Source of the DNA: Lichina pygmaea
Lineage: Eukaryota > Ascomycota > Lichinomycetes > Lichinales > Lichinaceae
Assembly: GCA_963422465.1 (NCBI GenBank)
Contig: OY730171.1
Location: 1-64,000, forward strand
DNA: 64,000 nt
Direction of reading: 5' to 3'
The notes under the pieces were generated by a model. The model was not told where the DNA came from, made no database searches, and was given only the letters and a program-made list of their open reading frames with translations. This document shows, piece after piece, positions 3,844 through 33,306 of this stretch. The position numbers were made by a program, and so were the translations under genes. The stretch's first letter is position 1; each line of letters opens with the position of its first letter.

Positions 3844-4370
3844 TCAGCTCTGCGATGAACCAGAAGCTGGTGGATTACCACCAAGCAAACCTGCAGCAAC
3901 CAGGTCTGATGGAGATAACAGCTCAAGAGAAGCCAAAGCCTCTGAAGAGAAGATGTCCTCAAAGGACAGTGGAGCAGCAGCCTGACTGGTCTCCTGTTCA
4001 CAGATAACACGGAGAGCCTTCTGTTCCTGAGCATCAAGGGATTCCTGATCCTTGATAGCAGACAGCTCACAACAGATGGTATCAGCCTCCTTCTGTGAGA
4101 GATGACCCAGCTGCCAGCAGAGGCAGATCTGCTGGGGAAGCAACTTTGATAATTGGTCATCAGTCTCCCGCAACTGAGCCTTGAGCTGCTCGCGCTCAAG
4201 TTCCATCTTCTTCCATTCTGATTCCGAGAGATGAAGGTCACAGCAACAACCCTTCTCAACATACTGACAACAAAAAGATGATACAGAGCTCACAACACAC
4301 TTGGTGTGGTCACAACAACAAGCACCGCATATAATTTTTGATTCCTTGCCTATTTTGCCAATATGACAAG
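3844..4370 (-). other. Antisense Cys-rich/coiled-coil reading frame at the 3' end of family A
   Basis: An open frame runs opposite to pol, from just inside the 3' LTR side of the element back across the chromodomain. Its N-terminal part is a cysteine-rich stretch starting CGACCCDHTKC (C-x2-C-x6-C), then more cysteines, then a Trp (SESEW). A long charged heptad-like stretch (WKKMELEREQLKAQL onward) predicts a coiled coil. The order Cys cluster, Trp, coiled coil and the genomic position match the antisense frame of family B at 11,845-12,345. No start codon is obvious. It is a fossil; whether it was ever expressed cannot be seen here. Confidence 0.5.
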
Positions 4371-4471
4371 AAAGAAAACTGCGACGACAAGTTCAAGTTG
4401 TCTGGCTTTGGTTCATGACAAAAGAGGAGTAGGAACAAAAAGGATCTGGGAACCTTGGAGGGAGGGGATAG

Positions 4472-4914
4472 TGTTAAGGCCTAGGCCGGAACAGCCCAGG
4501 TAAGCGAGGGAGGAGTGTTAGTCATGCGGAACAACATCTGACTGATCCGGTGGACGAGCAGGAGCTAAGCGAGGAGCTTGTCCGGTGGACGAGCAGGAGC
4601 TAAGCGAGGAGCTCGTCCGGTGGACAAGCAGAAGCTAAGTGAGGAGCTTGTCCGGTGGACAAGCAGGAGCTGAGGAGCTTGTCCGGTGGACAAGCAGGAG
4701 CTAAGCGAGGAGCTTGTCCACGCAAAAGGATGATACCCCTCAAGGAGACCCCCCCCCTTGGGGCATCTGTATAAAGACTCCCCAAAGGGCTCGGAGGGAT
4801 TAGCTCTCCAGGCTGAACACACAATACAAACCCATCGTACTGAGACAATAGCACAGGAGAGTTACCCCACCTGTCTATTCCTCTACCAAGTCCCTGTCTA
4901 GAATCCGCCCCACA
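4472..4914 (+). repeat. 3' LTR of gypsy family A
   Basis: Starts TGTTAAGGCC after a purine-rich tract (GGAGGGAGGGGATAG) and is taken to end at CCCCACA, giving TGT...ACA termini. It contains a TATA-like ATAAAG near 4,770 and an internal tandem repeat. No second complete copy is present in the window, so the right edge is uncertain by tens of bases. A rearranged relative lies inverted at 44,794-44,973. Confidence 0.7.
4545..4722 (+). repeat. About 39-bp tandem repeat inside the family A LTR
   Basis: Four to five consecutive units built on CCGGTGGACAAGCAGGAGC followed by TAAGCGAGGAGCTTGT. Units differ by single substitutions, and one is shortened. Each holds the short inverted pair GAGCT/AGCTC. 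The repeat lies upstream of the LTR TATA-like box, where iterated promoter elements are common in LTRs. Confidence 0.85.
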
Positions 4915-5262: not shown

Positions 5263-5859
5263 TGTTGCGGTCTGTACCGTGCCGTCCTATCCGAGTATAG
5301 GATTAGGGTGAGAGGTGGAAGGTGGGTTGGTTCTCGCAGGAGAGGAGTGTCAAGGAGTGCGAAGGGGTTTGGTGGAACATGGTGGTGGTGACACCTGATC
5401 AACAGCTTTGTACAAAGGATTGTATTGAAGTAGATCTAGTTGTCTGGATCACAACATGAGTTGAAGACGATTGTTCCATAAGGGAACTATCGCCGGACTA
5501 TATAGTGCTGGCCTGTCGAGACAATCGAGATTGTCTCAACAGTCTCGACGTCAAGACAGGTGAGATTGTCTTGACAGTCCCACCATGTTATGCACCCTGC
5601 GTCGAGACGGGTGAGATTGTCTTGATGCTTCATGCATCATGTGTCGAGACTGGTGAGATTGTCTTGATGCTTCATGCATCATGCGTCAAGACTGGTGAGA
5701 TTGTCTTGATGCTTCATGCATCATGCGTCAAGACTCCCGTGTGTCTCGACAGTCACGTGACCCCTTGTTGGTTGGTCACTTGACTTCCATGGTGTCCTCT
5801 TGCCTGGCCCACAGCCTGATTGCCTATAAATGAGTGGCTCCCATCCCTGGGTCGTAACA
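5263..5859 (-). repeat. Family B LTR (outer left, 3' LTR of B1)
   Basis: In element orientation it starts TGTTACGACCCAGGGATGG and ends GACCGCAACA. It contains a palindromic CTATATAG box in the sense direction, a CTATAAATGAG box on the opposite strand near 5,823, and about three 42-bp tandem repeats carrying GTGAGATTGTCTTGATGC (about 5,600-5,735). The 42-bp period gives an open frame with a 14-residue repeat, which is not evidence of a protein. Confidence 0.95.
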
Positions 5860-5903
5860 CTACCCTCCTCTCCTTCATTCATCGTCCTGATGAATTCTTG
5901 AGT

Positions 5904-6404
5904 ATGTCTGCAAAATCACGTGCCTCTGCTTACTGAAACCAACTGGCAGCCCAGATCCGTGATCATAACTTTGTGTTGCTTGCTCTGTGTGACTTCTGTG
6001 TTTTGAACCATAAGCCCTGCTTCCGAATGTCTGACAACAACAATAAGTTGAAGTGCGCTGAGTGCACTCGTCGGGGAAAGTCCTGTGTGTCACTTTCTTG
6101 GGAGTCGCTGAACATGACTCAGGATAACCTTCGCAAGGATTTGGCTGTTGATGAGGCCAAGCGGGATGCTCTTGTTGAGCAGCTTGCCGAGCTGCAGGCT
6201 CGTGTGTCCTGAAAGCGAAAGGTTCTTGAGGGTGCTGAGGGTTGAGCAAAGAAGAAGCTCCAGTGCCTTGTTGCTGAAATGGAGGTGGATGGTGAAGATT
6301 TGTCGGCGACAGTCATTGACGTGTCCGCGCTGCAGGCCGAGCTGTTCAGTCCTGCTCCTGCCGGAACTGCTGCAGGAGGAGCTGGCAGTTCGCGAGGTTC
6401 CTGA
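5904..6404 (+). other. Antisense frame region of B1 (Zn2Cys6-like/coiled coil)
   Basis: Counterpart of the better preserved frame at 11,845-12,345, lying between pol and the 3' LTR on the strand opposite to gag-pol. The cysteine cluster (LCDFC, KCAECTRRGKSC) and the coiled-coil part (AKRDALVEQLAELQ) are plain. It is a decayed copy with a few breaks. Confidence 0.7.
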
Positions 6405-9400
6405 GTGGCTCCCAGGTATTTTCCGAGTCTGGGTAGTCTTTCCACTTGACAAGGTATCGCTGACCTTTTCTCTTCAGGATCTGTTCAGCCTTGAATTCCT
6501 GTTCTTCCTCTGGTTGGTAATGAAATGTTTCCTGCAAGGGTGTGCTCTGGTCAGCTAATTCGATCATTGAGATGTGAAAGTTTGGGTGTACCCGAGCATC
6601 TCTCGGTAGTCGCAGTCTGATGTTGACTGGTCCAGTTCTTTCTTTGACTGAAAATAGTCTGACCTTGACATAGTCCAGTTTCTTTGTTCTTGGTTTCTTG
6701 ACTTTCCAATTTTTTGTGAGGAGGTAGACTTTATCCCCCTTCTTCAGCTGAGGTGCCATTTTCGATTTTTTGTCCATTTGGTGTTGCATCTTTTCTGAGG
6801 TCTCTTGAAGGTAATGCCTCATCATCGTGTGTGTTTGTCGTAGGAGCTTGTCATGTTGGAGTGCTTTCTCCGCGTTTGGTGAAGCTCTGCTTGGCATTCT
6901 GATGTTTGCGTGTTGTCCAAAATTGGCAAAGAATGGTGATTCCTTTGTTGAGTCTGATCTGTGCTGGTTGATTGCCAGCTGTGCCACTGGTAATAATTGT
7001 ACCCAATTGCTGTGGGTCTGGTTGATGTAATGCCGCAAATAAGTCTCCAGGACTTGGTTTACTCGCTCTGTCTGGCTGTCAGTTCGTGGGTGGTAGGCTG
7101 TAGACATCTTGGGTTTTGTTCCCATGGCTGCACTGATTGTTTTCCAGTAGTTGGATGTGAAGAGTTTGTCTCTGTCAGTAATGACTGTGATTGGAACTCT
7201 GTGGTCCCTGACCAATCTGTCCAGTAGGAGGTGTCCCAACTGCTCTGCTGTGTGGGTTTCCTTGAATAGTACCGCTATTAGGTATTTTGTGAATCTGTCC
7301 ACAATCACCATAATTGAGTCGTAGGTGATTCCTGTGACTGGGTCTTTGGACTTGGGTAGCTTTGTGATGAAGTCCATTGACATATCTTCCCACAGGCCTC
7401 TCGGTATCGTGTTCGGGTGTCCTTCTCCATATGGCTTGTGTCTTCCATGCTTGTTTTTCTGGCATAGTAGACATTTGTTGATGTAGCTTGTGACGTGTTG
7501 TCAGAGATTGATGACATTGTTCCCTGCCTGTTGGATCAGGTCTGTGGTTTTGGTGATTCCTGGGTGACTATGTGCTGGGTTATCGTGGTAGTTCCTTATT
7601 AGTTCTTCAGTGTCTTCTGCCGTGAGCTTGTTGATCTGTGGTTGAGGCACCAGGTTTCCTTGTTGGTCCTGCTGTAAGATTGTTCCTTGGTGTTCATCAT
7701 CTTCCATGTGGTCTTTTCGTCAGCTTAGTGTGTCTGCTCTCCTATTGTCTTGTCCAGGGGTGTACAAGATCTTGAACTTGTGTTGCCCTAGGAGTTCAGC
7801 CCATCTGACTTGCCGTCTGTTCAGCTTCTTGGTTGTTGTGAACGTTGTCAGATTCTTGTGGTCTGTGAGAATAGTGAGTTCGGAACTGCTTTCCACGTAC
7901 ACTTTCCAGTGTTCGAGTGCGTTGACAACTGCCAGTAGCTCTTTATCGTGGATATCATAGTTTCGTTCTGCTTGTGACATTTTGCGTGAGTAGTAGGCAA
8001 CTGGGTGCCACTTGCCGTCTGCCTGTTGGCATAGACATACTCCCACTGCCTGATCTGAAGCGTCTGTCTTGATTCGCGTCAGTTGGCCTGTCTTGAAGTT
8101 GAGGAGAACTGGTTCCTTGGCGCAAGCATCCTTGAGCTGTTGGAATGCTTTTTGTTGTCTCTCCGTCCACCGGTACTCCACGTCCTTCTTTGTGAGTTCT
8201 GTCAGTGGTGTTGCCATCTGTGAGTAGTTCTTGATAAACTGTCGGTTGAAGTTGGCAAATCCCAGGAAGGCTTGTACTTCCTTAACTGATATCAGTGTTG
8301 GCCATTGCTGAATCACTTTGATTTTCTCAGAGTCAATTTTGATCCCTTCGATCCCTATGATGTATCCGAGGAATTCAATTTCCGGTTTGTTGAACTCGCA
8401 TTTCTTTGGGTTGAGCTTGAGCCCTGCCTCTTGTAGACATCGTAGAACATCCTTCACATGTTTGGTATGTTCTTGTTGCGTGTTCGAGTAGACAAGAATG
8501 TTGTCCAGGTAGGTGATAGCTGTTTGGTCCAGGTGTGCTCTGATGACGTTGTTGATCAATGCTTGACATGTTGCTGGTGCGTTCGTGAGTCTGAATGGCA
8601 TAACCAGATACTTGTAGTGTCTGTATCAGGTTCTGAAGGCTGTCTTCCATTCTTCTCCTTCTTTCATGCGTATCAGGTTGTATGCTCCTTTCAAGTCCAG
8701 CTTGGTAAAGATTGTAGCTTGGCTGATCCTGTCTCGCAATTCGTTCGCATTTGGCAACGGATATCAGTTCTTGATGGTAATGTTGTTGAGTTTCCTGTAA
8801 TCCACACAAAGTCGAAGACTTCCGTCTTTCTTTGGTGCAAATAGTATCGGGTATCCTGCTGGCGATTGAGATTCTCGAATGAAACTCTTTTTCAGGTTTT
8901 CCTCCAGGTACTCGCGAAGTACTTGGAGCTCTTTCTCTGATAACTGGTAAATTGGTCCAAATCCTGGCTCTGTCCCTGGTTGCAACTTGATCTCATGATC
9001 CCAAGGTTGGTGCTTAGGCAACGCTGCTGTCGTTGTCTCTTCCTGAAAGAGGTTATCATACCCAGGTCAGTACTCTTCAGAGATCTCCAGAGGGTTAACA
9101 ACTTCCTCTCTCTTCATCTCTGACTGTTTGGCCACCTGGTTCTGGGGTGTGCCTGTCGAGGTGGACCTCTTCTTTTGAGAGTCGTCCTTTCTGTCAGTGA
9201 GGTTCCACTGAGGACTCCTTCCCTCATCTGTCCACGCCTTCTGCGGCTGGTAACAGGTCCGAGCTGCGTTGTTAGTGCAGTTCCTAAACATGAGTACTCC
9301 TGTCTTCCAGTTAACAACTGGGTTGTGCTTCTTTAGCCAAGGCATCCCCAAATAGATATCCTGAGTGGCTAACTCGACAATATCAAGGTGGATCCTTTCA

Positions 9401-9698
9401 GCATGGTGTCTGGTAACTATTTCCATTGGCTGCGTCTCATGGCAGACTAGCTCTGTCTGTCCATTTGCTATCGTGAGCTGATAGGGCTGCTGCTTGCGTC
9501 TCCTTCCAGTGCTGAGGGTATCGTAAAGTTGTCTTGAAATGTAGTTCCCACTGGCTCCAGAGTCAACAAGTGCGTATGTCTGTATTGGCGTGTTGGCATA
9601 TAGTGACACAGGTAATCGCAGGTGCTTTGTGTTGCTAGGGGTCATGTTGTTGAGCTCCCGATGTCGCCCCTTGACAAGGGAGTTCAGTCTTTTCCTGA

Positions 9699-11183
9699 TC
9701 AAAGTGTCTTACCACTGACTGGGCAATAGGTCCAGCCATTCCCATCAGTTCTGAGGAATCTGTTCATGAATTTGTCTTGCTGATGCTTGTCACATCCAGG
9801 CTTGAGGCAGTACTGCCAATTGTCAACGTAGCAGTTGTAGTTGTTGCCTTGCTGTAGGAACATGAGGCGTTCGTGCCAATCATGTGTGTGCCCGGGGAAT
9901 GTGGTGTGTTGGCGTTTGTCCCAAAGATGGATCTCACACGCATCCTTCTCGCAATTGACCCAATGCTTGTGGCAGGTGGCGTGGTAGGGTGAATGTCCTC
10001 CGTACCTTCGTAGTTGTTTGTGGTAGGTGCAGTAGTGCCTTGTGCAAAACCTCCACTGTAGTTCACCATGCCGTAGATTTCGTGGGTCCATGCTGTAAGC
10101 ATAGCTTCCTTGTGGTATTTCTTCTTTGATAGACGCGGGTTTGTCTTGGTCCCCATCAGAGGTGGTTAAGGGCTCCTGTCCCTTGTCCTGACCTGTTAGT
10201 TCTGGTAGGTCCTTGCCTCCTGATGTTGCCAGTTGGTGGGCTGCTTCCAATATCTGATCGTAGTCGTCCCATTGTTCGAGGGATAGCTGAGCCTCTCCTG
10301 GTGGGTCCTCTGGCTTGATGACATTCCAGTCTCCGTCGAGCGTATTAAGTTGCTGTCGGTGCACCTTGTTCTTTGAACAACAGTCTTTCGCCATGTGGCC
10401 TAGCTTGCCACAGGTGTAGCACTTCAGTGCTTTCCTCTTTTTGTTGTTCCTTCCCTTCGTGAACCTTCCCTTGTGGTGGACTGCATCCAGTTCCATGGGT
10501 GCATAGCCATATGGGTCATGTGGTGGTGCCTTGTTAGGCAGCTTGTAGTGGTTGCTCACATGCCATGCGGGGTGGCTGTATCCTCTGTCGTGGTGTTTCT
10601 CCATCACTCGCTCGAATAGTTTGTCATCGATGTCGATTGCTTGTGCGATGAGCTTGTCCAGTGTGTTGACTGCTTGTCTGTCAAAGGTAATTTCATCCTT
10701 CACGTTTTCCTTGAGTCCACATCGGTACATGACCATCAGGGTGTTGTCGTCCCAATCAGTCAGTACTGAGTATTGTTTGAACTGCGTGGTGTACTCTGCG
10801 GCTGAGCGTTGTTGCTTGATGTGCTGGATCATTCGTATAGCCACTTTGTCTTTGTTAGATGGTCCAAGGATCCTTTTGATCTTGTCCTTGAATTGCGTCC
10901 ATTTCGTCATCCATTCTGATGTGCTGTCGTGGTCTCCGTTTCCTGAGAGATGTTTGTTGACGTAGGGTTTGATCCATCGATAAGCATTGCCTCTCATGTA
11001 AGTGGTTGCAAAGAGTGGCCACTTTTCTTTAGGCAGCTTTGTCTCTGGTTGGAATTGAAAGTAGACTTGGAGTTGCATGAGCCAATCATCAACCTTGTTC
11101 CTTTCGCCGTAGAACAGGTCTGGCTTGGCGACGCTAATCTTTCCATCTGGGAAGTTGGGGTTGGTTGCTCCTGAGGTACTCAT
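9699..11183 (-). mobile_element. gag region of B1 with CCHC knuckle and a second Cys/His-rich domain
   Basis: An open frame of 494 codons. The N-terminal half is a retrotransposon gag core (DKLFYGER-type region, WMTKWTQFKDKIKRILGPSN). A CCHC zinc knuckle, CYTCGKLGHMAKDC, follows near 10,370-10,415. The last about 120 residues form a dense Cys/His region (HYCTYHKQL; CHKHWVNC; CEIHLW; FPGHTHDWH; CLKPGCDKH) present in all four B copies. It is a fossil part, described only as such. Confidence 0.88.
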
Positions 11184-11201
11184 CCTTGAGGGTCTTCAAA
11201 G

Positions 11202-11800
11202 TGTTGTGGTCCGTACTGTGCTGTCCTATCCGAGTATAGGATTAGGGCGAGAGGTGGAAGGCGGGTTGGTTCTCGCAGGAGAGGAGTGTCAAGGAGCGCG
11301 AAGGGGTTTGGTGGAACATGGTGGTGGTGACACCTGATCAACAGCTTTGTACAAAGGATTGTATTGAAGTAGATCTAGTTGTCTGGATCACAACATGAGT
11401 TGAAGACGATCGTTCCATAAGGGAACTATCGCCGGACTATATAGTGCTGGCCTGTCGAGACGATTGAGATTGTCTTGACAGTCTTGATGTCAAGACAGGT
11501 GAGATTGTCTTGACAGTCCCACCATGTTATGCACCCTGCGTCAAGACGGGTGAGATTGTCTTGATGCTTCATGCATCATGCGTCGAGACTGGTGAGATTG
11601 TCTTGATGCTTCATGCATCATGCGTCGAGACTGGTGAGATTGTCTTGATGCTTCATGCATCATGTGTCGAGACTCCCGTGTGTGTCTCGACAGTCACGTG
11701 ACTCCTTGTTGGTTGGTCACTTGACTTCCATGGTGTCCTCTTGCCTGGCCCATGGCCTGATTGCCTATAAATGAGTGGCTCCCATCCCTGGGTTGTAACA
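11202..11800 (-). repeat. Family B LTR shared by B1 and B2
   Basis: 599 bp, TGTT...AACA. It serves as 5' LTR of B1 on its left side and 3' LTR of B2 on its right. No target duplication or foreign base lies at either edge, as expected from recombination or tandem integration rather than two separate insertions. Confidence 0.95.
11764..11773 (+). promoter_or_regulatory. TATA-like box on the antisense strand of the family B LTR
   Basis: CCTATAAATG lies 72-81 bases upstream of the ATG of the antisense frame at 11,845 and reads in its direction. The same box stands at this place in all family B LTRs. It could drive antisense transcription from the 3' LTR. It is position-consistent but untested. 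Confidence 0.45.
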
Positions 11801-14800
11801 CTACCCTCCTCTCCTTCATTCATCGTCCTGATGAATTCTTGAGTATGTCTGCAAAATCATGTGCCTCTGCTTACCGAAACCAACTGGCAGCCCAGATCCG
11901 TGATCATAACTTTGTGTCGCTTGCTCTGTGTGACTTCTGTGTTTTGAACCACAAGCCCTGCTTCCGAATGTCTGACGACAACGATAAGTTGAAGTGCGCT
12001 GAGTGCACTTGTCGGGGAAAGTCCTGTGTGTCACTTTCTTGGGAGTTGCTGAACATGACTTGGGATAACCTTCGCGAGGATTTGGCTGTTGATGAGGCCA
12101 AGCGGGATGCTCTTGTCGAGCAGCTTGCCAAGCTGCAGGCTCGTGTGTCCCGAAAGCGAAAGGTTCTTGAGGGTGCTGAGGGTCGAGCAAAGAAGAAGCT
12201 CCAGTGCCTTGTTGCTGAAATAGAGGTGGATGGTGAAGATTTGTCGGTGACAGTCATTGACGTGTCTGCGCTGCAGGCCGAGCTGTTCAGTCCTGCTCCT
12301 GCCGGAACTGCTGCAGGAGGAGCTGGCAGTTCGCGAGGTTCCTGAGTGGCTCCCAGGTATTTTCTGAGTCTGGGTAGTCTTTCCACTTGACAAGGTATCG
12401 CTGACCTTTTCTCTTCAGGATCTGTTCAGCCTCGAATTCCTGTTCTTCCTCTGGTTGGTAATGAAATGTTTCCTGCAAGGGTGTGCTCTGGTCAGCTAAT
12501 TTGATCATTGAGATGTGAAAGTTTGGGTGTACCCGAGCGTCTCTCGGTAATCGCAGTCTGACGTTGACTGGTCCGGTTCTTTCTTCGACTGAAAATAGTC
12601 CGACCTTGACATGGTCCAGTTTCTTTGTTCTTGGTTTCTTGACTTTCCAATTTTTTGTGAGGAGGTAGACTTTATCCCCCTTCTTCAGCTGAGGTGCCAT
12701 TTTCGATTTTTTGTCCATTTGGCGTTGCATCTTTTCTGAGGTCTCTTGAAGGTAATGCCTCATCATCGTGTGCGTTTGTTGTAGGAGCTTGTCATGTTGG
12801 AGTGCTTTCTCCGTGTTTGGTGAAGCTCTGCTTGGCATTCTGATGTTTGCGTGTTGTCCAAAATTGGCAAAGAATGGCGATTCCTTTGTTGAGTCTGATC
12901 TGTGCTGGTTGATTGCCAGCTGTGCCACTGGTAATAATTGTACCCAATTGCTGTGGGTCTGGTTGATGTAATGCCGCAAATAAGTCTCCAGGACTTGGTT
13001 TGCTCGCTCTGTCTGGCTGTCAGTTCGTGGGTGGTAGACTGTAGACATCTTGGGTTTTGTTCCCATGGCTGCACTGATTGTTTTCCAGTAGTTGGATGTG
13101 AAGAGTTTGTCTCTGTCAGTAATGACCGTGATTGGAACTCCGTGGTCCCTGACCAATCTGTCCAGTAGGAGGTGTCCCAACTGCTCTGCTGTGTGGGTTT
13201 CCTTGAATGGTACTGCTATTAGGTATTTTGTGAATCTGTCCACAATCACCATAATTAAGTCGTAGGTGATTCCTGTGACTGGGTCTTTGGACTTGGGTAG
13301 CTTTGTGATGAAGTCCATTGACACATCTTCCCACGGGCCTCTCGGTATTGTGTTCGGGTGTCCTTCTCCATATGGCTTGTGTCTTCCATGCTTGTTTTTC
13401 TGGTATAGTAGACATTTGTTGATGTAGCTTGTGACGTGTTGTCAGAGATTGATGACATTGTTCCCTGCCTGTTGGATCAGGTCTGTGGTTTTGGTGATTC
13501 CTGGGTGACTATGTGCTGGGTTATCGTGGTAGTTCCTTATTAGTTCTTCAGTGTCTTCTGCTGTGAGCTTGTTGATCTGTGGTTGAGGCACCAGGTTTCC
13601 TTGTTGGTCCTGCTGTAAGATTGTTCCTTGGTGTTCATCATCTTCCATGTGGTCTTTTTGTCGGCTTAGTGCGTCTGCTCTCCTATTGTCTTGTCCAGGG
13701 GTGTACAAGATCTTGAACTTGTGTTGCCCTAGGAGTTCAGCCCATCTGACTTGCTGTCTGTTCAGCTTCTTGGTTGTCGTGAACATTGTCAGATTCTTGT
13801 AGTCTGTGAGAATAGTGAGTTCGGAACTGCTTTCCGTGTACACTCTCCAGTGTTCGAGTGCGTTGACGACTGCCAGTAGCTCTTTATCGTGGATATCATA
13901 GTTTCGTTCCGCTTGTGACATTTTGCGTGAGTAGTAGGCAACTGGGTGCCACTTGCCGTCTGCCTGTTGGCATAGACATGCTCCCACTGCCTGATCTGAA
14001 GCGTCTGTCTCGATTCGCGTCGGTTGGCCTGTCTTGAAGTTGAGGAGAACTGGTTCCTTGGCGCAAGTGTCCTTGAGCTGTTGGAATGCTTTTTGTTGTC
14101 TCTCCATCCACCGGTACTCCACGTCCTTCTTCGTGAGTTCTGTCAGTGGTGTTGCCATCTGTGAGTAGTTCTTGATGAACTGTCGGTTGAAGTTGGCAAA
14201 TCCCAGGAAGGCTTGTACTTCCTTAACTGATGTCGGTGTTGGCTATTGCTGAATCACTTTGATTTTCTCAGAGTCAATTTTGATCTCTTCAATCCCTATG
14301 ATGTATCCGAGGAATTCAACTTCCGGTTTGTTGAACTCGCATTTCTTTGGGTTGAGCTTGAGCCCTGCCTCTTGTAGGCATCGTAGAACATCCTTCACAT
14401 GTTTGGTATGTTCTTGTTGCGTGTTTGAGTAGACAAGAATGTTGTCCAGGTAGGTGATAGCTGTTTGGTCCAGGTGTGCTCTGATGATGTTGTTGATCAA
14501 TGCTTGACATGTTGCTGGTGCGTTCGTGAGTCTGAATGGCATAACCAGATACTTGTAGTGTCCGTATCGGGTTCTGAAGGCTGTCTTCTATTCTTCTCCT
14601 TCTTTCATGCGTATCAGGTTGTATACTCCTTTCAAGTCCAGCTTGGTAAAGATTGTAGCTTGGCTGATCCTGTCTCGCAATTCGTTCGCATTTGGCAACG
14701 GATATTGGTTCTTGATGGTAATGTTGTTGAGTTTCCTGTAATCCACACAAAGTCGAAGACTTCCATCTTTCTTTGGTGCAAATAGTATCGGGTATCCTGC

Positions 14801-17142
14801 TGGCGATTGAGATTCTCGAATGAAACCCTTTTTCAGGTTTTCCTCCAGGTACTCGTGAAGTACTTGGAGCTCTTTCTCTGATAACTGGTAAATTGGTCCA
14901 AATCCTGGCTCTGTCCCTGGTTGCAACTTGATCTCATGATCCCAAGGTTGGTGCTTAGGCAACACTGCTGTTGTTGTCTCTTCCTGAAAGAGGTTATCAT
15001 ACCCAGGTCAGTACTCTTCAGGGATCTCCAGAGGGTTAACAACTTCCTCTCTCTTCATCTCTGACTGTTTGGCCACCTGGTTCCGGGGTGTGCCTGTCGA
15101 GGCAGACCTCTTCTTTTGAGAGTTGTCCTTTCTGTTGGTGAGGTTCCACTGAGGACTCCTTCCCTCATCTGTCCACGCCTTCTGCGGCTGGTAACAGGTC
15201 CGAGCTGCGTTGTTAGTGCAGTTCCTAAACATGAGTACTCCTGTCTTCCAGTTAACAACTGGGTTGTGCTTCTTTAGCCAAGGCATCCCCAAATAGATAT
15301 CCTGAGTGGCCAACTCGACAATATCAAGGTGGATCCTTTCAGCATGGTGTCCGGTAACTATTTCCATTGGCTGCGTCTCATGGCAGACTAGCTCTGTCTG
15401 TCCATTTGCCATCGCGAGCTGATAGAGCTGCTGCTTGCGTCTCCTTCCAGTGCCGAGGGTGTTGTAAAGTTGTCTTGAAATGTAGTTCCCACTGGCTCCA
15501 GAGTCAACAAGTGCGTATGTCTGTATCGGCGTGTTGGCGTATAGTGACACAGGCAATCGCAGGTGCTTTGCGTTGCTAGGGGTCATGTTGTTGAGCTCCC
15601 GATGTTGCCCCTTGACAAGGGAGTTCAGTCTTTTCCTGATCGAAGTGTCTTACCACTGACTGGGCAATGGGTCCAGCCATTCCCATCAGTTCTGAGGAAT
15701 CTGTTCATGAATTTGTCTTGCTGATGCTTGTCACATCCAGGCTTGAGGCAGTACTGCCAATTGTCGACATAGCAGTTGTAGTTGTTGCCTTGCTGTAGGA
15801 ACATGAGGCGTTCGTGCCAATCATGTGTGTGCCCGGGGAATGCGGTGTGTTGGTGTTTGTCCCAAAGATGGATCTCACACGCATCCTTCTCGCAATTGAC
15901 CCAATGCTTGTGGCAGGTGGCGTGGTAGGGTGAATGTCCTCCGTACCTTTGTAGTTGTTCGTGGTAGGTGCAGTAGTGCCTTGTGCAAAACCTCCACTGT
16001 AGTTCACCGTGCCGTAGATTTCGTGGGTCCATGCTGTAAGTATAGCTTCCTTGTGGTATTTCTTCTTTGATAGACGTGGGTTCGTCTCAGTCCCCATCAG
16101 AGGTGGTTAAGGGCTCCTGTCCCTTGTCCTGACCTGTTAGTTCTGGTAGGTCCTTGCCTCCTGATGTTGCCAGTTGGTGGGCTGCTTCCAATATCTGATC
16201 GTAGTCGTCCCATTGTTTGAGGGATAGCTGAGCCTCTCCTGGTGGGTCCTCTGGCTTGATGACATTCCAGTCTCTGTCAAGTGTATTAAGTTGCTGTCGG
16301 TGCACCTTGTTCTTTGAACGACAGTCTTTCGCCATGTGGCCTAGCTTGCCACAGGTGTAGCACTTCAGTGCTTTCCCCTTTTTGTTGTTCCTTCCCTTCG
16401 TGAACCTTCCCTTGTGGTGGACTGCATCCAGTTCCATGGGTGCATAGCCATATGGGTCATGTGGTGGTGCCTTGTTAGGCGGCTTGTAGTGGTTGCTCAC
16501 ATGCCATGCGGGGTGGCTGTATCCTCTGTCGTGGTGTTTCTCCATCGCTCGCTTGAATAGTTTGTCATTGATGTTGATTGCTTGTGCGATGAGCTTGTCC
16601 AGTGTGTTGACCGCTTGTCCATCAAAGGTAATTTTATCCTTCATGTTTTCCTTGAGTCCACGTCGGTACATGACCATCAGGGTGTCGTCGTCCCAATCAG
16701 TCAGTACTGAGTATTGTTTGAACTGCGTGGTGTACTCTGCGGCTGAGCGTCATTGCTTGATGTGCTGGATCATTCGTATAGCCACTTTGTCTTTGTTAGA
16801 TGGTCCAAGGATCCTTTTGATCTTGTCCTTGAATTGTGTCCATTTCGTCATCCATTCCGATGTGCCGTCGTGGTCTCTGTTTCCTGAGAGATGTTTGTTG
16901 ACGTAGGGTTTGATCCATCAATAAGCATTGCCTCTCATGTAAGTGGTTGCAAAGAGTGGCCACTTTTCTTTAGGCAGCTTCGTCTCTGGTTGGAATTGAA
17001 AGTAGACTTGGAGTTGCATGAGCCAATCGTCAACCTTGTTCCTTTCGCCGTAGAACAGGTCTGGCTTGGCGACGCTAATCTTTCCATCTGGGAAGTTGGG
17101 GTTGGTTGCTCCTGAGGTACTCATCCTTGAGGGTCTTCAAAG
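11801..17142 (-). mobile_element. Gypsy family B, internal region of B2
   Basis: Collinear with B1 and offset by about 5,941 bases. Parts on the minus strand: gag (about 15,640-17,124), protease (about 15,010-15,590), reverse transcriptase (about 14,240-14,930), RNase H (about 13,670-14,050), integrase (about 12,800-13,500), chromodomain (about 12,340-12,500). The antisense frame at 11,845-12,345 is fully open. Gag-pol carries roughly six to eight breaks. Differences from B1 are nearly all transitions. Confidence 0.93.
11845..12345 (+). other. Antisense open frame of family B: Zn(II)2Cys6-like cluster plus coiled coil (166 aa)
   Basis: Starts MSAKSCASAYRNQ and ends at a TGA shortly inside the 3' end of pol on the other strand. 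Cysteines 29, 32, 39, 51, 54 and 61 fit C-x2-C-x6-C-x11-C-x2-C-x6-C, the spacing of fungal Gal4-type binuclear zinc clusters. Conserved LSWE follows, then a charged helical stretch (about residues 75-135; AKRDALVEQLAKLQ, RKRKVLEGAEGRAKKK), then an Ala/Gly/Ser tail. Known Gal4-type clusters often precede coiled-coil dimerisers. Whether this binds DNA or RNA, or is expressed, is inference. Related hypothetical proteins with KCAECTRRG are, from memory, widespread in fungal genomes. Confidence 0.75.
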
Positions 17143-17741
17143 TGTTGCGGTCTGTACCGTGCCATCCTATCTGAGTATAGGATTAGGGCGAGAGGTGGAA
17201 GGCAGGTTGGTTCTCGCAGGAGAGGAGTGTCAAGGAGTGCGAAGGGGTTTGGTGGAACGTGGTGGTGGTGACACCTGATCAACAGCTTCGTACAAAGGAT
17301 TGTATTGAAGTAGATCTAGTTGTCTGGATCACAACATGAGTTGAAGACAATCATTCCATAAGGGAACTATCGCCGGACTATATAGTGCTGGCCTGTCAAG
17401 ACGATCAAGATTGTCTTGACAGTCTTGACGTCAAGACAGGTGAGATTGTCTCGACAGTCCCACCATGTTATGCACCCTGCGTCGAGACGGGTGAGATTGT
17501 CTTGATGCTTCATGCATCATGCGTCAAGACTGGTGAGATTGTCTTGATGCTTCATGCATCATGTGTCAAGACTGGTGAGATTGTCTTGATGCTTCATGCA
17601 TCATGCGTCGAGACTCCTGTGTGTGTCTTGACAGTCACGTGACCCCTTGTTGGTTGGTCACTTGACTTCCATGGTGTCCTCTTGCCTGGCCCGTGGCCTG
17701 ATTGCCTATAAATGAGTGGCTCCCATCCCTGGGTCGTAACA
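17143..17741 (-). repeat. Family B LTR (outer right, 5' LTR of B2)
   Basis: 599 bp, TGTT...AACA, followed immediately by the AAGAA target duplication (17,742-17,746) and by resumed LINE ORF1 sequence. Confidence 0.95.
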
Positions 17742-20094: not shown

Positions 20095-20455
20095 CCTAGG
20101 AACACTCAGTCTTGGGGTGTGGTCCCAGGATTGAGCAAGTACTCCCAGTCAGACAGATAACAGCTTGAACTTCTCTCAAGAGAAACATCTAGCATCAAGG
20201 AGATCAGGGCTCCCAGGATAAGAGAAATGGTTTAGAGCTTGCCTCTAGTGCTGGTAGAGTTGAAAAACTCTAGGAAAGCTCAGGCAGGGGGTGTGGTCTC
20301 CAGCTTGAGTTAATACAGCCAGATTTCCCTAGAGTCTAGTTGGAAAAGACTGCCCAGGAAAGTACAGTCTTGGGGAGTGGTCCCAGGATTGTGCAATTAC
20401 TGCTAGGAACCAGGTGACCCTTTGTGAACAACCCACTGTGCAGGCTACCTACCCT
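20095..20455 (+). promoter_or_regulatory. Iterated motifs in the LINE 5' UTR
   Basis: A motif close to GGGGTGTGGTCCCAGGATTG recurs near 20,113, 20,285 (diverged) and 20,372, each followed by a GAG/GTG-CAA-TACT-like stretch. The spacing is irregular (about 90-170 bp). LINEs carry internal promoters in this region, and some mammalian L1s use repeated monomers. A promoter role here is inference. Confidence 0.45.
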
Positions 20456-21856
20456 ATGCCTGTCAAAAAGAAGAAACCGGACTCCTCCCAGAACACTACC
20501 AGAAAAACAACACCTTCTCCAACAATGCCAGCTCCCAGTTCTGCTGGTACTCAGCCTAGTTCTTCTACCCCCTATCCAGCTCTCCAGAATGACTACAACC
20601 TACTGGACTCATGGCTCAAGACTCAAGCTACCCCAGAATCTGTACTGAAAAGCTGGGAGAATATTAAGAAAAACTCTTGTACTAATGAAGCCCAGTCCAC
20701 CAAAACCCAGTCTCTCCCCACTGGTCTGACCAACAAGATTTTCCAGGAGCTGGAGAATATTAGCAAGCGGCTAGACAAGCAAGAATCTAAGCCATCATAT
20801 GCCCAGGCTGTTCAGAAACATATCCCAGCTCAAATCCCTCTAGCTCCAAGGATTCTGAAGGAAGTTCTTGTCCACCCTGGTAACCAGACACCTGATATGG
20901 CCAACAGGACTCACATCCAGCTTTTTCAAGCTCTCCAAGACAGACTCCCCAGTCCCTATAATAAACAAGTCAGAGCAGTGAGAAAACTTCCCTCAGGGGA
21001 CATTCTTATTAACACTGAAACCCAAGAGACTAAGAGTTTTCTGGAGAAAGACTCTGCCTGGATATCAGCTATTTTTACCAAGGAAGCAACTATCCAACCC
21101 AAGAGATTCCCAGTGTTGATTCATGGAGTCAGAACCACAGACATCCAGCCAGAAAACCTGGAAAAAACTCGCCAGACTATCCAGAACAGCAACCCATCCC
21201 TGAGCAAGCAAATCACTATTCTAAGAGCCTACTGGTCAAAGAAGGCTATAGCTCAAAAGAAACCAGTTACTTCACTCCACCTGGATCTGGCCACCCCGGA
21301 ACAGGCCAATCTTCTAATTGAGAGTGGAGTAGTGCTGGGCCACAGATTGCATGAGGCAGAGCCTTTTCTGGCTAACACAGTGGTGGCACAATGCTTCAAG
21401 TGCTTTGGGTATGGACACCAAGCTCGCCTGTGCAGGAATCAAGCTGTATGTGGTGCCTGTGGAGGCCAGCATGAAAGAAGAACCTGCCAAATCCCTGAGC
21501 AACTGCTAAAGCCAAAATGCAGCAACTGCAAAGGAGCTCACCCAGCCTGGGCTAGCACATGCCCAGTATGCCAAGAAGCAGTCAAGAAGGCAAGAGAGGC
21601 ATGGATTTCCCGCCCAGGGAAGTATGAGATCTCCACTGCTACCACTGTCCCAGTCACACAGTCTCCAGTTACTTTCCCCTTCATACAGACTCTTCCAGGG
21701 GGAAAAAGACGGAAAACCACAGAGCCAACTAGAAGCTCAGAGAGACTCAGAGGAGGGTCTCCAGAAGTGCAAATTCTGTCTACAAGATCAACAAACACAG
21801 GGGGAAAGCAGTCAGTCAACCCCTTCAAGATCTTTGAAGATGAAATGTCTACATGA
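20456..21856 (+). CDS. LINE ORF1 protein, three CCHC zinc knuckles (466 aa)
   Basis: Nucleic-acid-binding ORF1 protein of a non-LTR retrotransposon, which coats the element RNA. The start chosen is the ATG giving MPVKKKKPDS, a basic, possibly nuclear-targeting N-terminus; the frame is open 14 codons further upstream but with no ATG. A Ser/Thr/Pro-rich N-terminal third is followed by a central domain (IQLFQALQDRLPS, RFPVLIHGVRT). Three C-terminal knuckles follow: CFKCFGYGHQARLC, CGACGGQHERRTC and CSNCKGAHPAWASTC. The tail is Ser/Arg-rich. Its TGA overlaps the ORF2 ATG as ATGA. A partial antisense copy of this ORF lies at 4,965-5,262 and 17,742-17,836. Confidence 0.93.
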   Translation: MPVKKKKPDSSQNTTRKTTPSPTMPAPSSAGTQPSSSTPYPALQNDYNLLDSWLKTQATPESVLKSWENIKKNSCTNEAQSTKTQSLPTGLTNKIFQELENISKRLDKQESKPSYAQAVQKHIPAQIPLAPRILKEVLVHPGNQTPDMANRTHIQLFQALQDRLPSPYNKQVRAVRKLPSGDILINTETQETKSFLEKDSAWISAIFTKEATIQPKRFPVLIHGVRTTDIQPENLEKTRQTIQNSNPSLSKQITILRAYWSKKAIAQKKPVTSLHLDLATPEQANLLIESGVVLGHRLHEAEPFLANTVVAQCFKCFGYGHQARLCRNQAVCGACGGQHERRTCQIPEQLLKPKCSNCKGAHPAWASTCPVCQEAVKKAREAWISRPGKYEISTATTVPVTQSPVTFPFIQTLPGGKRRKTTEPTRSSERLRGGSPEVQILSTRSTNTGGKQSVNPFKIFEDEMST

Positions 21857-24800
21857 AGAATACAAAGTTCACTCTTCTTCAATACAATGTGCAGAAAAGC
21901 CAATCAGTCCAAGAGCTACTTCTAGCAACCCCAACTCTTCAAGAAGTAGATATTATTGCACTTCAAGAACCCTGGAAGAATCCTCACCTTCAAACCAGCA
22001 CCTCAACTGTTTTTTCTTCTTTTCTTCCTTTATATTCTCCAGAGATTGGTAGAACTCTTTTTCTTATTAACAAAAACCTGAATCTGTCATCTCTCCACCC
22101 TACTTTCTGGAGTAAAGACTTTGTTTCTCTTGAAATTCATCTGGAAAACACCTCTACTTCTCTGTGGGTGCATAATCTATACTTCACTCCCTCAAGTCAA
22201 GAGAACTACCTACAAGCATCAGAAGCTCTTCTCTGTCTACTCCAAAATGCTTTACAAGCAAAAGGGCAGCATATTCTTCTTACAGACTCAAATCTTCACC
22301 ACCCTGACTGGTCAAAGAAAAGAAGACTATATTCTGACACTGCACACAAGTTCCAAACTCTAATGAAAAACTCAAATCTGGAGTTAGCTATTGCACCTTT
22401 TACACCCACAAGAGCTAGATCTCTTTCCCACAAACCCTGTTCACCTATTGATCTTTCCTTTATATCTTCTTCTCTTTCTAACTCTCTAATCTTTTCTAAA
22501 ATTGCTTTGCAGTTCTTTCATGGGTCTGACCACAGACCTGTGCTAACTAGCCTGGACCTGGACTCACCAAGAAAAACCTGGAAGCCAGAAAGGAACTGGA
22601 AAACACTGGACACAAACTTGGCAAAACAAGAGTGTAATAATTTGCAGCTGCCCTTCCACTTTCAAGATAAACATGAAGTGGATGAGTACTTGGAATATCT
22701 TAACCACTTTCTCCAAGAAATAGCAGACAGATGCACAGAACTCCAGAAGCAATCTAGCCACTCAGTCCCCTGGTGGAACCAAGAGATCCAAACTAAAGTT
22801 AAGCAGGAAAGAAGAATAAGAAGACAAGTGCTCAGAGGACAGGCAAGCCAAGAAGAGCTAGAAGAAGCAACTAAGCTCAAGAAGAAAGCTGTCAGAGAAG
22901 GCAAACAGAACACCTTCAGAAAACAAGTTCATGAGCTAGCCAGTTCCTCAAAATTCTGGAAGCTTGCAAAGTGGGGAAAATCAAAAGCCAACAAGACCCC
23001 TGATCTTCCTCTGGTCCCTGATCTGGAGACTCAAGAAGGACTAGCCAAAAGCTTTGAGGAGAAGACAAAATCTTTCTCAGCTCAATTCTTTCCAGAAGCA
23101 CGTGTTCCAGAACCAAGTACAGAAAGTCACCAGAGTACCCCAGAGATCCAGCTTTCTCAGGAGGTTACCACTGAAGAAGTGGAGCAAATTCTGAACAAGA
23201 AGAAACCTTTTACAGCAGGAGGAAAAGACAAGCTGCCAAATGGATTTCTGAAAGCTCTGGGTCCCAAGTTCTGCCAAGCTATAGCTGTTCTCACATCAAC
23301 ATGCTGGAGACTGGAATACTTTCCAGAGAAATTCAAGAATGCAAAAACAGTCTGTCTAAGAAAACCTGGCAAGGGAATCTATAACCAAGCTAAAGCCTGG
23401 CGCCCTATAGCTCTGCTAAACACAACTGGCAAGCTGATGGAAGCTATTACAGCAGCCAGACTAAGCAAGGTAGCAGAAGAGGCTAAACTCTTGCCAGAAA
23501 TCCAGATGGGGTTCAGGAAAGGCAGATCAACTGAATCAGCACTTTTCCTTCTAACTTCCCAAGTGGAAAAAGTCTGGAAAGAAGGCATGGTTGCATCTCT
23601 ACTTTCTCTGGACATCTCAGGAGCATATGACAGAGTTCTTCCAGAGATTCTTCAAAAGATTCTGGAGAGAAAAGGAATCCCTCTCTGGCTAACTTCTTGG
23701 ATCTTCTCTTTCTGTACCAGACGTACCACCACCCTAGTTTTTGATGACTCTGAGTCCTCTTCTATTCCTATTCACTGTGGAGTTCCCCAAGGTTCCCCTT
23801 TGTCTCCTATTCTTTTTCTATTCTATATTTCTGAACTTCATGAGACTGTACATTCTCCTACTACTGGTGTTTCTGCTCTGGGATTTGCAGATGATACAAA
23901 TCTGCTTGCATTTGGACACTCTCTTAAAAGCAACCTTCTGAAGTTGAAGAATACACATCTTAAATGTCTATCTTGGGCTGCAAGACATGGAATGGTCTTC
24001 TCTCCTGAGAAATATGAAATACTTCATTTTTCCAGAAGAAGATCAGACAATCTGCAGCTCAAGCTTAGACTTGGGAATGTGATTCTAAAACCAAAAGAAG
24101 AAGTGCGAGTATTGGGAGTGTACCTGGATGCCAAACTCCACTGGCACAAACACCAGAGAATTATTCTTCAAAAAGCACAAAAAGCACTATCTTCTCTTTC
24201 TAGAACCTCTTACTCCACCTGGGGCTTTCCAGTTCTCACAGCACACCTTGTGTACACTGCAATACTCAGATCTGTACTGAGCTATGCAGTGGGAATTTGG
24301 TTCAACCCACTCAGAAAATCCTCTAATATTTCCTCTCTTATCATATTCCAAAACAAATGTCTGAGACTTATTGGGGGTGCTTTCAAAGCCACTCCTTCTT
24401 TTCTATTAGAGAGTGAGCTTTTTCTTTTACCTCTAGATCTCTATTTTAAATTTCGCACAGCTTGTTTTCTATCTTCTATCCAAACCTCCTCTCTGAAAGA
24501 CTTTCTTGACAGTACCTTTTCTACTATTTCTTCCTATGCTTCTTCACTGAGGAAACCTTTAAAGAAATCCTCAACTATCTCTCCTAATTGGAAGTTCACT
24601 TGGTTAAGTCAAATAACTACTAACCAGGCTAGTTCAAAGAAAGAACTACAAATACTCTTTACTAAAGAGTGGGAAAACCAATGGGAGAAGAAGAAAAGAA
24701 AAGGCTATGCTGGATGGCAGGTGTTTTGCCAAAAACCTCACTACAACAACCTAAAGCTCTACAAAGAGCTACAGAAAGCTGACGCAAGTCTACTACTGCA

Positions 24801-25095
24801 AACCAGAACTGGGAGAATTGGTCTAGCAAGTTTTCTTTTCAGAGCTGGAGTCCCTGACTTTCCTACCCCCCTATGCATGTGTGGTCAAGCAGAAGAGACA
24901 GTAAAGCATATCACCTCTTCATGCTCTCTCTACTCAAGTCAAAGACAACATGCTCTCTTTAACCCCCAAGATTTCACTACTATTATTTCAAACCCAGAGC
25001 TTCTACAGAAGTTTCTGTACTGGTTTATGTCTTTGAAAAGACTAAACCAATTTAATCTGGCTTTCAAACTTCACTATTCACACTCCAACATCTAG
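21853..25095 (+). CDS. LINE ORF2 protein: APE-type endonuclease and reverse transcriptase (1,080 aa)
   Basis: Enzyme of target-primed reverse transcription. Residues about 1-235 are an exonuclease-endonuclease-phosphatase domain (LLQYNVQKS, IALQEPW, TDSNLHHPDWS, SDHRPVLTSL). Residues about 480-760 are reverse transcriptase (WRPIALLNTTGKL, GFRKGRSTESAL, LSLDISGAYDRV, GVPQGSPLSPILF, catalytic FADD at about 678-681). A C-terminal CCHC-type motif, CMCGQAEETVKHITSSC, lies near residue 1,015. No RNase H domain is recognised. The start overlaps the ORF1 stop by ATGA, suggesting termination-reinitiation. The frame is intact and could be active. Copy 1 of the same LINE is decayed. Confidence 0.94.
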   Translation: MKNTKFTLLQYNVQKSQSVQELLLATPTLQEVDIIALQEPWKNPHLQTSTSTVFSSFLPLYSPEIGRTLFLINKNLNLSSLHPTFWSKDFVSLEIHLENTSTSLWVHNLYFTPSSQENYLQASEALLCLLQNALQAKGQHILLTDSNLHHPDWSKKRRLYSDTAHKFQTLMKNSNLELAIAPFTPTRARSLSHKPCSPIDLSFISSSLSNSLIFSKIALQFFHGSDHRPVLTSLDLDSPRKTWKPERNWKTLDTNLAKQECNNLQLPFHFQDKHEVDEYLEYLNHFLQEIADRCTELQKQSSHSVPWWNQEIQTKVKQERRIRRQVLRGQASQEELEEATKLKKKAVREGKQNTFRKQVHELASSSKFWKLAKWGKSKANKTPDLPLVPDLETQEGLAKSFEEKTKSFSAQFFPEARVPEPSTESHQSTPEIQLSQEVTTEEVEQILNKKKPFTAGGKDKLPNGFLKALGPKFCQAIAVLTSTCWRLEYFPEKFKNAKTVCLRKPGKGIYNQAKAWRPIALLNTTGKLMEAITAARLSKVAEEAKLLPEIQMGFRKGRSTESALFLLTSQVEKVWKEGMVASLLSLDISGAYDRVLPEILQKILERKGIPLWLTSWIFSFCTRRTTTLVFDDSESSSIPIHCGVPQGSPLSPILFLFYISELHETVHSPTTGVSALGFADDTNLLAFGHSLKSNLLKLKNTHLKCLSWAARHGMVFSPEKYEILHFSRRRSDNLQLKLRLGNVILKPKEEVRVLGVYLDAKLHWHKHQRIILQKAQKALSSLSRTSYSTWGFPVLTAHLVYTAILRSVLSYAVGIWFNPLRKSSNISSLIIFQNKCLRLIGGAFKATPSFLLESELFLLPLDLYFKFRTACFLSSIQTSSLKDFLDSTFSTISSYASSLRKPLKKSSTISPNWKFTWLSQITTNQASSKKELQILFTKEWENQWEKKKRKGYAGWQVFCQKPHYNNLKLYKELQKADASLLLQTRTGRIGLASFLFRAGVPDFPTPLCMCGQAEETVKHITSSCSLYSSQRQHALFNPQDFTTIISNPELLQKFLYWFMSLKRLNQFNLAFKLHYSHSNI

Positions 25096-25353: not shown

Positions 25354-25699
25354 TGTGACAAGGCAATAGCAGAGCAGAACTCAAGCCTAACTGATTCAGT
25401 AACCTTGACCTGACTTGGCTTGAGACTTGAGACTTGGATTGATGTACAAGACGAAAGACAAGGAAGGAAAAGAGAAAAGAAGAAGAGAAGAAGCTGGGGG
25501 AGCAGGAGAAGTTCTTATAGGCAGGGGATACAGTGGAGCAAACAGGCAACAGTGCAGATGGAACTTCCCAGCAAGGTGCGTGACTTGTGCCAGATATGCA
25601 ACAAGGCAATAGTAGAGCAAACAGGTAACAGTGCAGATGGAACTTCCCAGCAAGGTGTGTGACTTGTGCCAGATATGCAACTGGGCCAGAACTGTGACA
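25354..25699 (-). repeat. Family C LTR (left, 3' LTR)
   Basis: 346 bp, TGTGACA...GTGACA. It contains an internal direct repeat of about 77 bp, built on GCAACAGTGCAGATGGAACT, present twice. GGAAG precedes it. Confidence 0.93.
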
Positions 25700-26762
25700 T
25701 TACCCCTCTCCTTCACATGGCAAGCTCCTGTGAGTCTCAGGCCGCTTGTGGGCATAGTTCTGTGGCTGTGGTTTCCTTGGGTATTTCTTATGGAAGTTGT
25801 AGATGGTATCTTTGGTGTTGTCAAGATGCTCAATAGGCTCTTCAGTGGTATCTTCAATTGGCCATCCAGACTATTTGACTAGGTACTTGAACTTCTGTCA
25901 AGATGTTGCTGGCTTGGAGTCAAGGATTTCTTCAACCTGGAACTCTTCATCTGTGTCTTGACTAATAACAGAGCCAGGGTGTTCATTTGATTGGCCAGGG
26001 ATAGGATTAGCAGGTGTCAGATGTAGAAGGGAAACATGAAAGACAGAGTGGATCTTGAGAGTATGTGGAAGCTCTAGATGGCAGGCACAGCTTCTGACTG
26101 TCTTCAACACCTTGAATAGTCCAATCCACTTGTTGTCAAGCTTTTTGCATAGGTGGTGTGTCCTGATGTTCTTGGTATTCAGCCAAACAAGATCTCCAGT
26201 TTGATAGGATAGTGACAGGACTTGATGCAAATTGGTGGTGTGAGCTTGAGCTTCCTGGGATAGTCAGAGTTCAGCTTGCAACTGTTCTAGAATCTGTGTT
26301 ATTTCTCCAGAGATTTCCATAGCATCTTGGTTGCAGGCTTCACTCATGGGTGTGATGCTGAGCTGTGGATGGAACTCTTTATTGGCAAAGAACAGTGACA
26401 TGCCAGAGGAATCAGACTGGGAGTTATTCTGTGTGAACTCTGCCAGAGGAAGCTATTGGACCCAGTCATCTTGGAGATAGTTGACATAGGATCTCAGGTA
26501 GTGTTCAAGCTCCTGATTCTCTTGTTCTGTCTGACCATCTGTCTCTGGGTGGTGTTCTGAGGATAGTCATAGCATGATGTCAAGATGGGCACAGAGTGCT
26601 TTCCAGAATAAGCTGACAAACTGACCTCCTCTGTCTGAGACAATGCTCCTGGGTAAGCCATGGGTACAGACAACAAACTGGATGAACATCCGGACAAGAT
26701 GTGAGGTTGTCATCTCAGCACATGGCACAAAGTGGTGTTCTTTGGTGAGACAGTCAGTGATG

Positions 26763-32700: not shown

Positions 32701-33306
32701 CAAAGTGTTGTGGTCTGTACTGTACTGTCCTATCCGAGTATAGGATTAGGGCGAGAGGTGGAAGGCAGGTTGGTTCTCGCAGGAGAGGAGTGTCAAGGAG
32801 TGCGAAAGGGTTTGGTGGAATGTGGTGGTGGTGACACCTGATCAATAGCTTTGTACAAAGAGATTGTATTAAAGTAGATCTAGTTGTCTGGATCACAACA
32901 TGAGTTGAAGATGATTGTTCCATAAGGGAACTATCACCAGACTATATAGTGCTGGCCTGTCAAGACAATCAAGATTGTCTTGACAGTCTTGATGTCAAGA
33001 CAGGTGAGATTGTCTTGACAGTCCCACCATGTTATACACCCTGTGTTGAGATGGGTGAGATTGTCTTGATGCTTCATGCATCCTGCGTCAAGACTGGTGA
33101 GATTGTCTTGATACTTCATGCATCCTGTGTCAAGACTGGTGAGATTGTCTTGATGCTTCATACATCCTGCGTTGAGACTCCTGTATGTGTCTCGACAGTC
33201 ACGTGACCCCTTGGTGGTTGGTCACCTGACTTCCATGGTGTTCTCTTGCCTGGCCTGCGGCCTGATTGCCTATAAATGAGTGGCTTCTATTCTCTGGGTT
33301 GTAACA
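26763..33306 (-). mobile_element. Ty3/gypsy family B copy B3, inserted in element C
   Basis: LTRs 26,763-27,363 and 32,706-33,306 (601 bp each); TGATG flanks at 26,758-26,762 and 33,307-33,311. Minus-strand parts: gag (about 31,200-32,690), protease (about 30,570-31,150), RT (about 29,800-30,530), RNase H (about 29,240-29,640), integrase (about 28,400-29,110), chromodomain (about 27,900-28,080). The antisense frame region is 27,408-27,908. It is the most decayed B copy, with ten or more breaks and strong excess of A/T relative to the other copies. Confidence 0.94.
27408..27908 (+). other. Antisense frame region of B3
   Basis: The same position and layout as 11,845-12,345: cysteine cluster, LSWES, then a coiled-coil stretch (VEQLAKLQ). 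A decayed fossil copy with several breaks. Confidence 0.6.

Follow-up and report, generated by a model that had tools for sequence, protein, structure and literature searches.

The antisense gene brtn of Boty, a Ty3/gypsy element of Botrytis cinerea, was reportedly described by Zhao et al. in 2011. In the available extracts of later papers, brtn is an extra antisense gene between pol and the 3' long terminal repeat (LTR) (PMC7264820), the gag-pol of Boty ends in a chromodomain (PMC4227169), a Monilinia transcript resembles a truncated Pol and BRTN (PMC5987419), and brtn is also mentioned in a further paper (PMC8365987). Similar extracts describe gene23 of Grande as nuclear and expressed from its own promoter (PMC7264820), and Retand as carrying antisense frames for TRP28, a predicted DNA-binding protein (PMC11963269). 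Meanwhile, HBZ of human T-cell leukemia virus type 1 (HTLV-1) is presented as an antisense gene driven by the 3' LTR, whose product, a nuclear basic leucine zipper (bZIP) regulator, reduces sense expression (PMC10186651). For LTR elements, the function of antisense accessory genes was stated as not known in the text available (PMC7264820). Here, we describe an antisense gene with a six-cysteine cluster in two families of gypsy elements, A and B, found in a 64,000-nt window of the ascomycete Lichina pygmaea (assembly GCA_963422465.1, contig OY730171.1, positions 1 to 64,000, the first part of C3 among the 8 contigs of the 32.5 Mb genome); all positions below are those of the window. As far as these partial descriptions go, Boty with brtn is like A and B, being a fungal chromodomain gypsy element with an antisense gene at an equal site.

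Family B has four copies in the window (B1, B2, B3 and B4). Pfam matches in four pieces of B1 and B2 comprised gag, zinc knuckle, protease, reverse transcriptase (RT)-RNase H, integrase core and chromodomain, and by its set of gag, protease, RT-RNase H, integrase and chromodomain, the family B carrier is a Ty3/gypsy chromovirus. The following features define the antisense gene in family B.

11845-12345, plus strand: antisense gene of B2, with its ATG at 11845 and its stop at 12343-12345, 166 codons plus stop.
11929-12027, plus strand: six-cysteine cluster of B2, C-x2-C-x6-C-x11-C-x2-C-x6-C.
12287-12345: tail-to-tail overlap of 59 bases between the antisense gene of B2 and the end of pol (chromodomain).
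5904-6404, plus strand: antisense frame of B1, closed by 3 TGA.
27408-27908, plus strand: antisense frame of B3, closed by 4 stops, with Cys54 changed to Tyr.
41667-42167, minus strand: antisense frame of B4, closed by 3 TGA.

The original prediction, made from the letters of the window, had claimed an opposite-strand frame between pol and the 3' LTR in all four B copies, open for 166 codons in B2, with this cysteine spacing and with a TATA-like box upstream in the LTR. All of these claims were borne out. The frame was colinear and free of indels in the four copies and open in one of them, B2, with zero internal stops across its 166 codons. The cysteines are residues 29, 32, 39, 51, 54 and 61 and fit the spacing exactly, and the box CTATAAATG lies 72-80 bases 5' of the ATG. 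The six-cysteine pattern arose in only 3 of 200,000 shuffles of the B protein, and a six-frame scan of the whole window returned it three times, each time in a B antisense frame. In both B copies given a codon score, the antisense frame ranked first of the six.

Across the genome, there were at least 150 matches to the B antisense protein, and 26 of the 150 matches listed were stop-free (hand count). Copies found with the antisense protein are biased toward intact ones; therefore, the tests used loci picked by pol DNA, with 30 rows per family, namely the window copy and 29 loci chosen from 40 listed, which are the copies nearest to the window's own. The antisense frame was present in most copies of both A and B. 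In family B, the antisense stretch had its exact length in 28 of 30 rows and was partial in the other 2, and the six cysteines were intact in 26 of the 28 copies. The 28 copies together contained 31 antisense stops, 30 of which were TGA, an excess that fits a genome decaying mainly at CpG. This decay was dominated by CpG to TpG/CpA changes, and the mean share of CpG states remaining was 31% in A and 58% in B (30 rows each).

The second family provided an independent comparison. Family A is a chromo-gypsy whose pol lies on the plus strand and ends at 4007, and its identity to B was 52% in the RT and 41% in the integrase-chromodomain region. Its antisense gene is placed as follows.

3844-4416, minus strand: antisense gene of family A, overlapping pol at 3844-4007 (164 bases, tail to tail).

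The window copy has TGA at codon 8 and lacks Cys52, so that it does not match the six-cysteine pattern. Open copies elsewhere in the genome have 190 codons, with cysteines at residues 30, 33, 40, 49, 52 and 59. Thus, the layout starts at residue 30 in A versus 29 in B, and the middle spacing is x8 in A and x11 in B. The distance from the ATG to the LTR edge is 44 bases in B and 55 in A, with the A edge taken from its TG...CA ends and the partner LTR lying outside the window. The B pattern had been pointed out beforehand, so A is the independent case for the shuffle test; the pattern arose in 55 of 200,000 shuffles of the A protein (copy L010). At least 150 genomic matches to the A antisense protein were found, and 114 of those listed were stop-free (hand count, with the N-terminus outside the compared stretch). 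The antisense stretch had its exact length in 28 of 30 A rows and carried indels in 2, and all six cysteines were intact in 23 of the 28 copies. Across these 28 copies, the antisense frame had 0-3 stops per copy, and the five other frames had 2-13 (sense frames, 2-12). Being the most open of the six, it points to the antisense strand as the coding one.

At the DNA level, blastn between A and B in the antisense-gene region gave zero matches over 150 bases. At the protein level, the six cysteines of A and B lined up with each other in a local alignment (p = 0.009, 2000 shuffles). The persistence of both the frame and the cysteines in A and B despite this deep split is the better evidence for constraint. 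A third gypsy family, C, shared 40% identity with B in the RT and 31% in the integrase. In its window copy, the pol stop abuts the LTR, leaving no room for an antisense gene. Judging by the three families examined in this genome, the antisense gene seems to be a trait of the A/B lineage.

Two further observations concern closed A copies. The TGA at codon 8 was present in 21 of 30 rows; it is a CpG site, and its frequency is compatible with the spread of CpG decay in A, where the median loss was 73%. Additionally, the TAG at codon 68 (5 of 28 copies) raised the idea that A elements had spread after losing their antisense gene. This idea was rejected: the carriers were not more similar to one another than to the remaining copies, which makes recurrent mutation likelier.

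The known spacing range of Zn2Cys6 domains is C-x2-C-x6-C-x5-12-C-x2-C-x6-8-C, and the spacings of A and B both fall inside it. When the cysteine segment of A was compared with 177635 PDB sequences, the Zn2Cys6 domain of Leu3 (2er8) came out on top, with six cysteines aligned (E = 0.5); the whole A profile matched one coiled-coil chain in the PDB (E = 0.017). In both families, a helix of about 60 residues was predicted directly after the last cysteine. In B, it covers residues 66-129 (64 residues), mostly with a predicted local distance difference test score (pLDDT) above 80, and in A, it covers residues 65-124 with moderate confidence. A cluster followed by a helix is the layout of dimeric Zn2Cys6 factors. 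The heptad test was not significant in B (p = 0.116) and borderline in A (p = 0.05). No relatives were found in IMG/VR (A and B alignments) or in prokaryote genomes (B alignment), a search that included no fungal collection.

The LTRs contain candidate sites for such a protein.

11765-11773, plus strand: TATA-like box CTATAAATG, in the antisense direction, inside the LTR.
11436-11445, minus strand: TATA-like palindrome ACTATATAGT, by its position a putative sense (gag-pol) core promoter.
11454-11691: nine GTC-NN-GAC dyads of the B LTR, bracketed by the two TATA-like boxes, as candidate targets of a dimeric regulator.
4546-4719: tandem array of the A LTR, 35 bp x 5.1, with four GTCC-NNN-GGAC dyads.

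The box CTATAAATG matched the window seven times, once in each of the seven B LTRs, and was intact in all 28 B rows that cover it. Nine dyads were observed in the B LTR, and 300 simulations gave at most 4 for any 3-mer dyad. Across the B copies, most dyad sites had the sequence GTCGAGAC or its complement, or a version altered by CpG decay. The A array is placed between TATAAAG at 4770 (sense) and the antisense start at 4416. In the one family C LTR tested, a comparable set of dyads was absent (at most 3).

We favour the reading, with a probability of roughly 55%, that this is an accessory gene lying antisense between pol and the 3' LTR in a fungal chromodomain Ty3/gypsy lineage and that its product is a dimeric, LTR-binding autoregulator. 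Antisense transcription would most likely start where the 3' LTR borders the internal region. The product would be small, with a Zn2Cys6-like cluster at its N-terminus, then a dimerising helix of roughly 60 residues and, toward the C-terminus, short helices that are poorly predicted. The dimer may bind the iterated LTR dyads, which are 5' of the antisense gene as well as of gag-pol; in this way, it may adjust transcription of its own element, as HBZ does for HTLV-1. The gene would be older than the A/B split, and the protein would have since diverged almost wholly outside the cysteines. A dimeric factor that is encoded by the element, binds the dyads and controls both directions would be the simplest joint reading. 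A more specific version is a tentative possibility: an element-encoded antisense Gal4-type dimer might bind palindromes between divergent LTR promoters, with GTC half-sites spaced 2 in B and 5 in A, and set a latency switch, in which case a fungal DNA-binding fold would have produced a parallel to HBZ.

Several results weigh against the autoregulator. Some of them suit another explanation, which we consider doubtful, namely that the gene encodes a real antisense accessory protein that does not bind DNA, for example, a helical, cysteine-rich factor that binds RNA or protein and serves in Rev-like export or as a capsid or pre-integration partner. Pfam Zn_clus (PF00172) gave zero matches at E values up to 1 for B2 and up to 5 for two B and two A copies. 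The same model did match elsewhere in the genome, at 27 places out of 41 scored candidates; this number is low for a fungus of such size, and none of the places was a listed antisense copy. The predicted fold is weak, as AlphaFold gave a pLDDT of about 45-57 for the cluster region in B and below 50 in A. A PDB sequence search with B returned nothing useful, and the Leu3 match of the A segment is not significant. A proline in the middle loop and basic residues are expected in the Zn2Cys6 family; in A and B alike, the loop joining the third cysteine to the fourth lacks proline, and B has few basic residues from Cys 32 to 39. Set against the non-DNA-binding explanation are the spacing of both families, the top (though not significant) rank of Leu3 for A, in which the six cysteines align, and the cluster-then-helix layout. 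The cluster is described here as Zn2Cys6-like and not as a Zn2Cys6 member.

The LTR signals must also be read with caution. On the antisense strand of the A LTR, a TATA string was absent except inside the sense TATAAAG at 4770, and 85% of the 218 CpG-free 8-mers of the B LTR were also at least 96% identical across copies. With most LTR 8-mers comparably conserved and A lacking the box, the antisense TATA-like box is weak evidence. In addition, arrays inflate dyad counts, and host factors could use the dyads.

These results also narrow what the original prediction had inferred. Of its Gal4-type cluster, the spacing stands, together with the non-significant Leu3 match of A, and the Zn2Cys6 profile search that it had proposed gave no Pfam Zn_clus match, alongside the low pLDDT. 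The coiled coil is retained as a predicted 64-residue helix, without a significant heptad pattern in B. Of the transposon-encoded regulator, a real antisense gene is supported, by way of family A, and its Gal4-type role is plausible only. The suggested check of synonymous patterns, carried out on copies within the genome, yielded a weak, strand-ambiguous signal in B and none in A.

It is unlikely that the antisense frame is a by-product of base composition or of present or past sense coding, with a cysteine pattern due to chance, and here, too, there are observations on both sides. The sense strand of the B region is itself fairly open (1-5 stops per frame and copy); openness by itself therefore proves little, and B alone could not settle the strand. 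Also counting against the favoured reading, the frame was fully open with an ATG in only 6 of 28 B copies (one further open copy starts with ATA) and 4 of 28 A copies. A pol segment of 948 bases was open in 7 of 30 B rows, a similar fraction, which puts the preservation of the antisense frame roughly level with that of pol. The codon scores of A go against the favoured reading as well: under each of two training sets, some sense frame outscored the antisense frame, although these higher-scoring frames contain 4 and 11 stops. The similarity between A and B, too, was gone when the cysteines were masked (p = 0.34), and hhalign aligned the first half of the cluster alone (E = 0.052, probability 1%). 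What the by-product explanation leaves aside is that A repeats the cysteine layout at a matching site although its sense frames hold 2-12 stops, and that the C copy in the window, which has no gap between pol and LTR, has no such frame.

Selection was examined with CpG sites set aside, using codon positions and all six frames. All non-CpG variants of B together looked neutral, with a nonsynonymous/synonymous (N/S) count of 29/15 versus an expected ratio of 1.89, so that constraint was not apparent. By frequency, N/S was 20/7 for single-copy variants, 6/1 for two-copy variants and 3/7 for those in at least 3 copies, and the last class leaned synonymous versus singletons (p = 0.023). The contrast vanished when two-copy variants were pooled with the last class (p = 0.198), the sense frame with matching wobble positions gave an identical p, and one further B frame gave p = 0.036 in the opposite direction. 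The lean of this wobble-aligned sense frame and the overall neutrality both suit the by-product explanation. Family A showed no contrast (27/16, 10/5 and 18/14 in the same classes). The identical test on B pol showed none either (31/27, 12/5 and 18/16), which indicates that the test has little power. Because the signal is weak and strand-ambiguous, our case is not rested on selection. Indels among the B rows numbered 0 over the 442 bases of the antisense gene, 1 over 949 bases of pol and 13 over 597 bases of the LTR; the LTR indels comprised 5 of 1-2 bases and 8 of 35-226 bases, and several of the large ones were near multiples of a 42-base repeat unit.

That the antisense transcript acts chiefly as RNA, pairing with the end of gag-pol RNA and feeding small-RNA silencing or interference, is very improbable, since, although noncoding antisense transcripts of retroelements are known and double-stranded RNA was proposed as a regulatory route in the available part of one account (PMC7264820), it leaves six in-register cysteines in two families unmatched at the DNA level unexplained.

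The carrier elements are arranged in the window as follows.

5263-11800: B1, gag-pol on the minus strand, sharing an LTR with B2.
11202-17741: B2, gag-pol on the minus strand, in tandem with B1.
11202-11800, minus strand: LTR common to B1 and B2 (3' LTR of B2).
26763-33306: B3, gag-pol on the minus strand.
36272-42809: B4, gag-pol on the plus strand.

The three-LTR tandem of B1 and B2 (5263-17741) has the identical 5 bases AAGAA at either flank, indicating that B1 and B2 entered, or were made, as one unit. The family C copy (25354-43913) has LTRs near 25354-25699 and 43568-43913 that are 96.8% identical, with GGAAG at either flank, and is split by B3 (duplication TGATG) and B4 (CTCCT). An isolated fragment of about 200 bases at 44593-44796 matches one end of the B LTR at 83-86% identity. 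A long interspersed nuclear element at 20414-25095 has two long open reading frames (480 and 1080 codons) with a 4-base overlap. Additionally, two RNase H matches with differing profile ends may represent further gypsy families.

Antisense accessory genes of LTR elements were already known in plants and Botrytis. A literature search of titles and abstract openings, with much subscription literature outside its reach, found no antisense zinc-cluster gene in gypsy elements. A recognisable DNA-binding type and candidate sites in one LTR make a regulatory role directly testable here, and if it were true, retrotransposons other than retroviruses could carry their own transcription factors.

Compared with the known systems, the closest match is brtn, for which the partial descriptions name no zinc domain, BRTN having been compared by description only. 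From extracts, the plant antisense open reading frames (Grande gene23, RIRE2 and Retand TRP28) differ in their proteins (TRP28, SMC-like) and hosts; Retand also differs in its long region between pol and the 3' LTR, and its TRP28 account does not contain the word zinc in the available part (PMC11963269). HBZ, as described in its extract, differs in being a bZIP protein instead of a cysteine cluster and in belonging to a retrovirus, and homology is not claimed. The A/B protein is like the Zn2Cys6 regulators (Gal4 and Leu3) in its six-cysteine spacing and the helix that follows; it differs from them in being unmatched by Zn_clus, in lacking the loop proline, in its length of only 166-190 residues and in being encoded by a transposon. 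An antisense gene at this site is thus not new in itself, as brtn and Grande gene23 attest; what is new here is a second chromo-gypsy family with a matching site, strand and six-cysteine layout.
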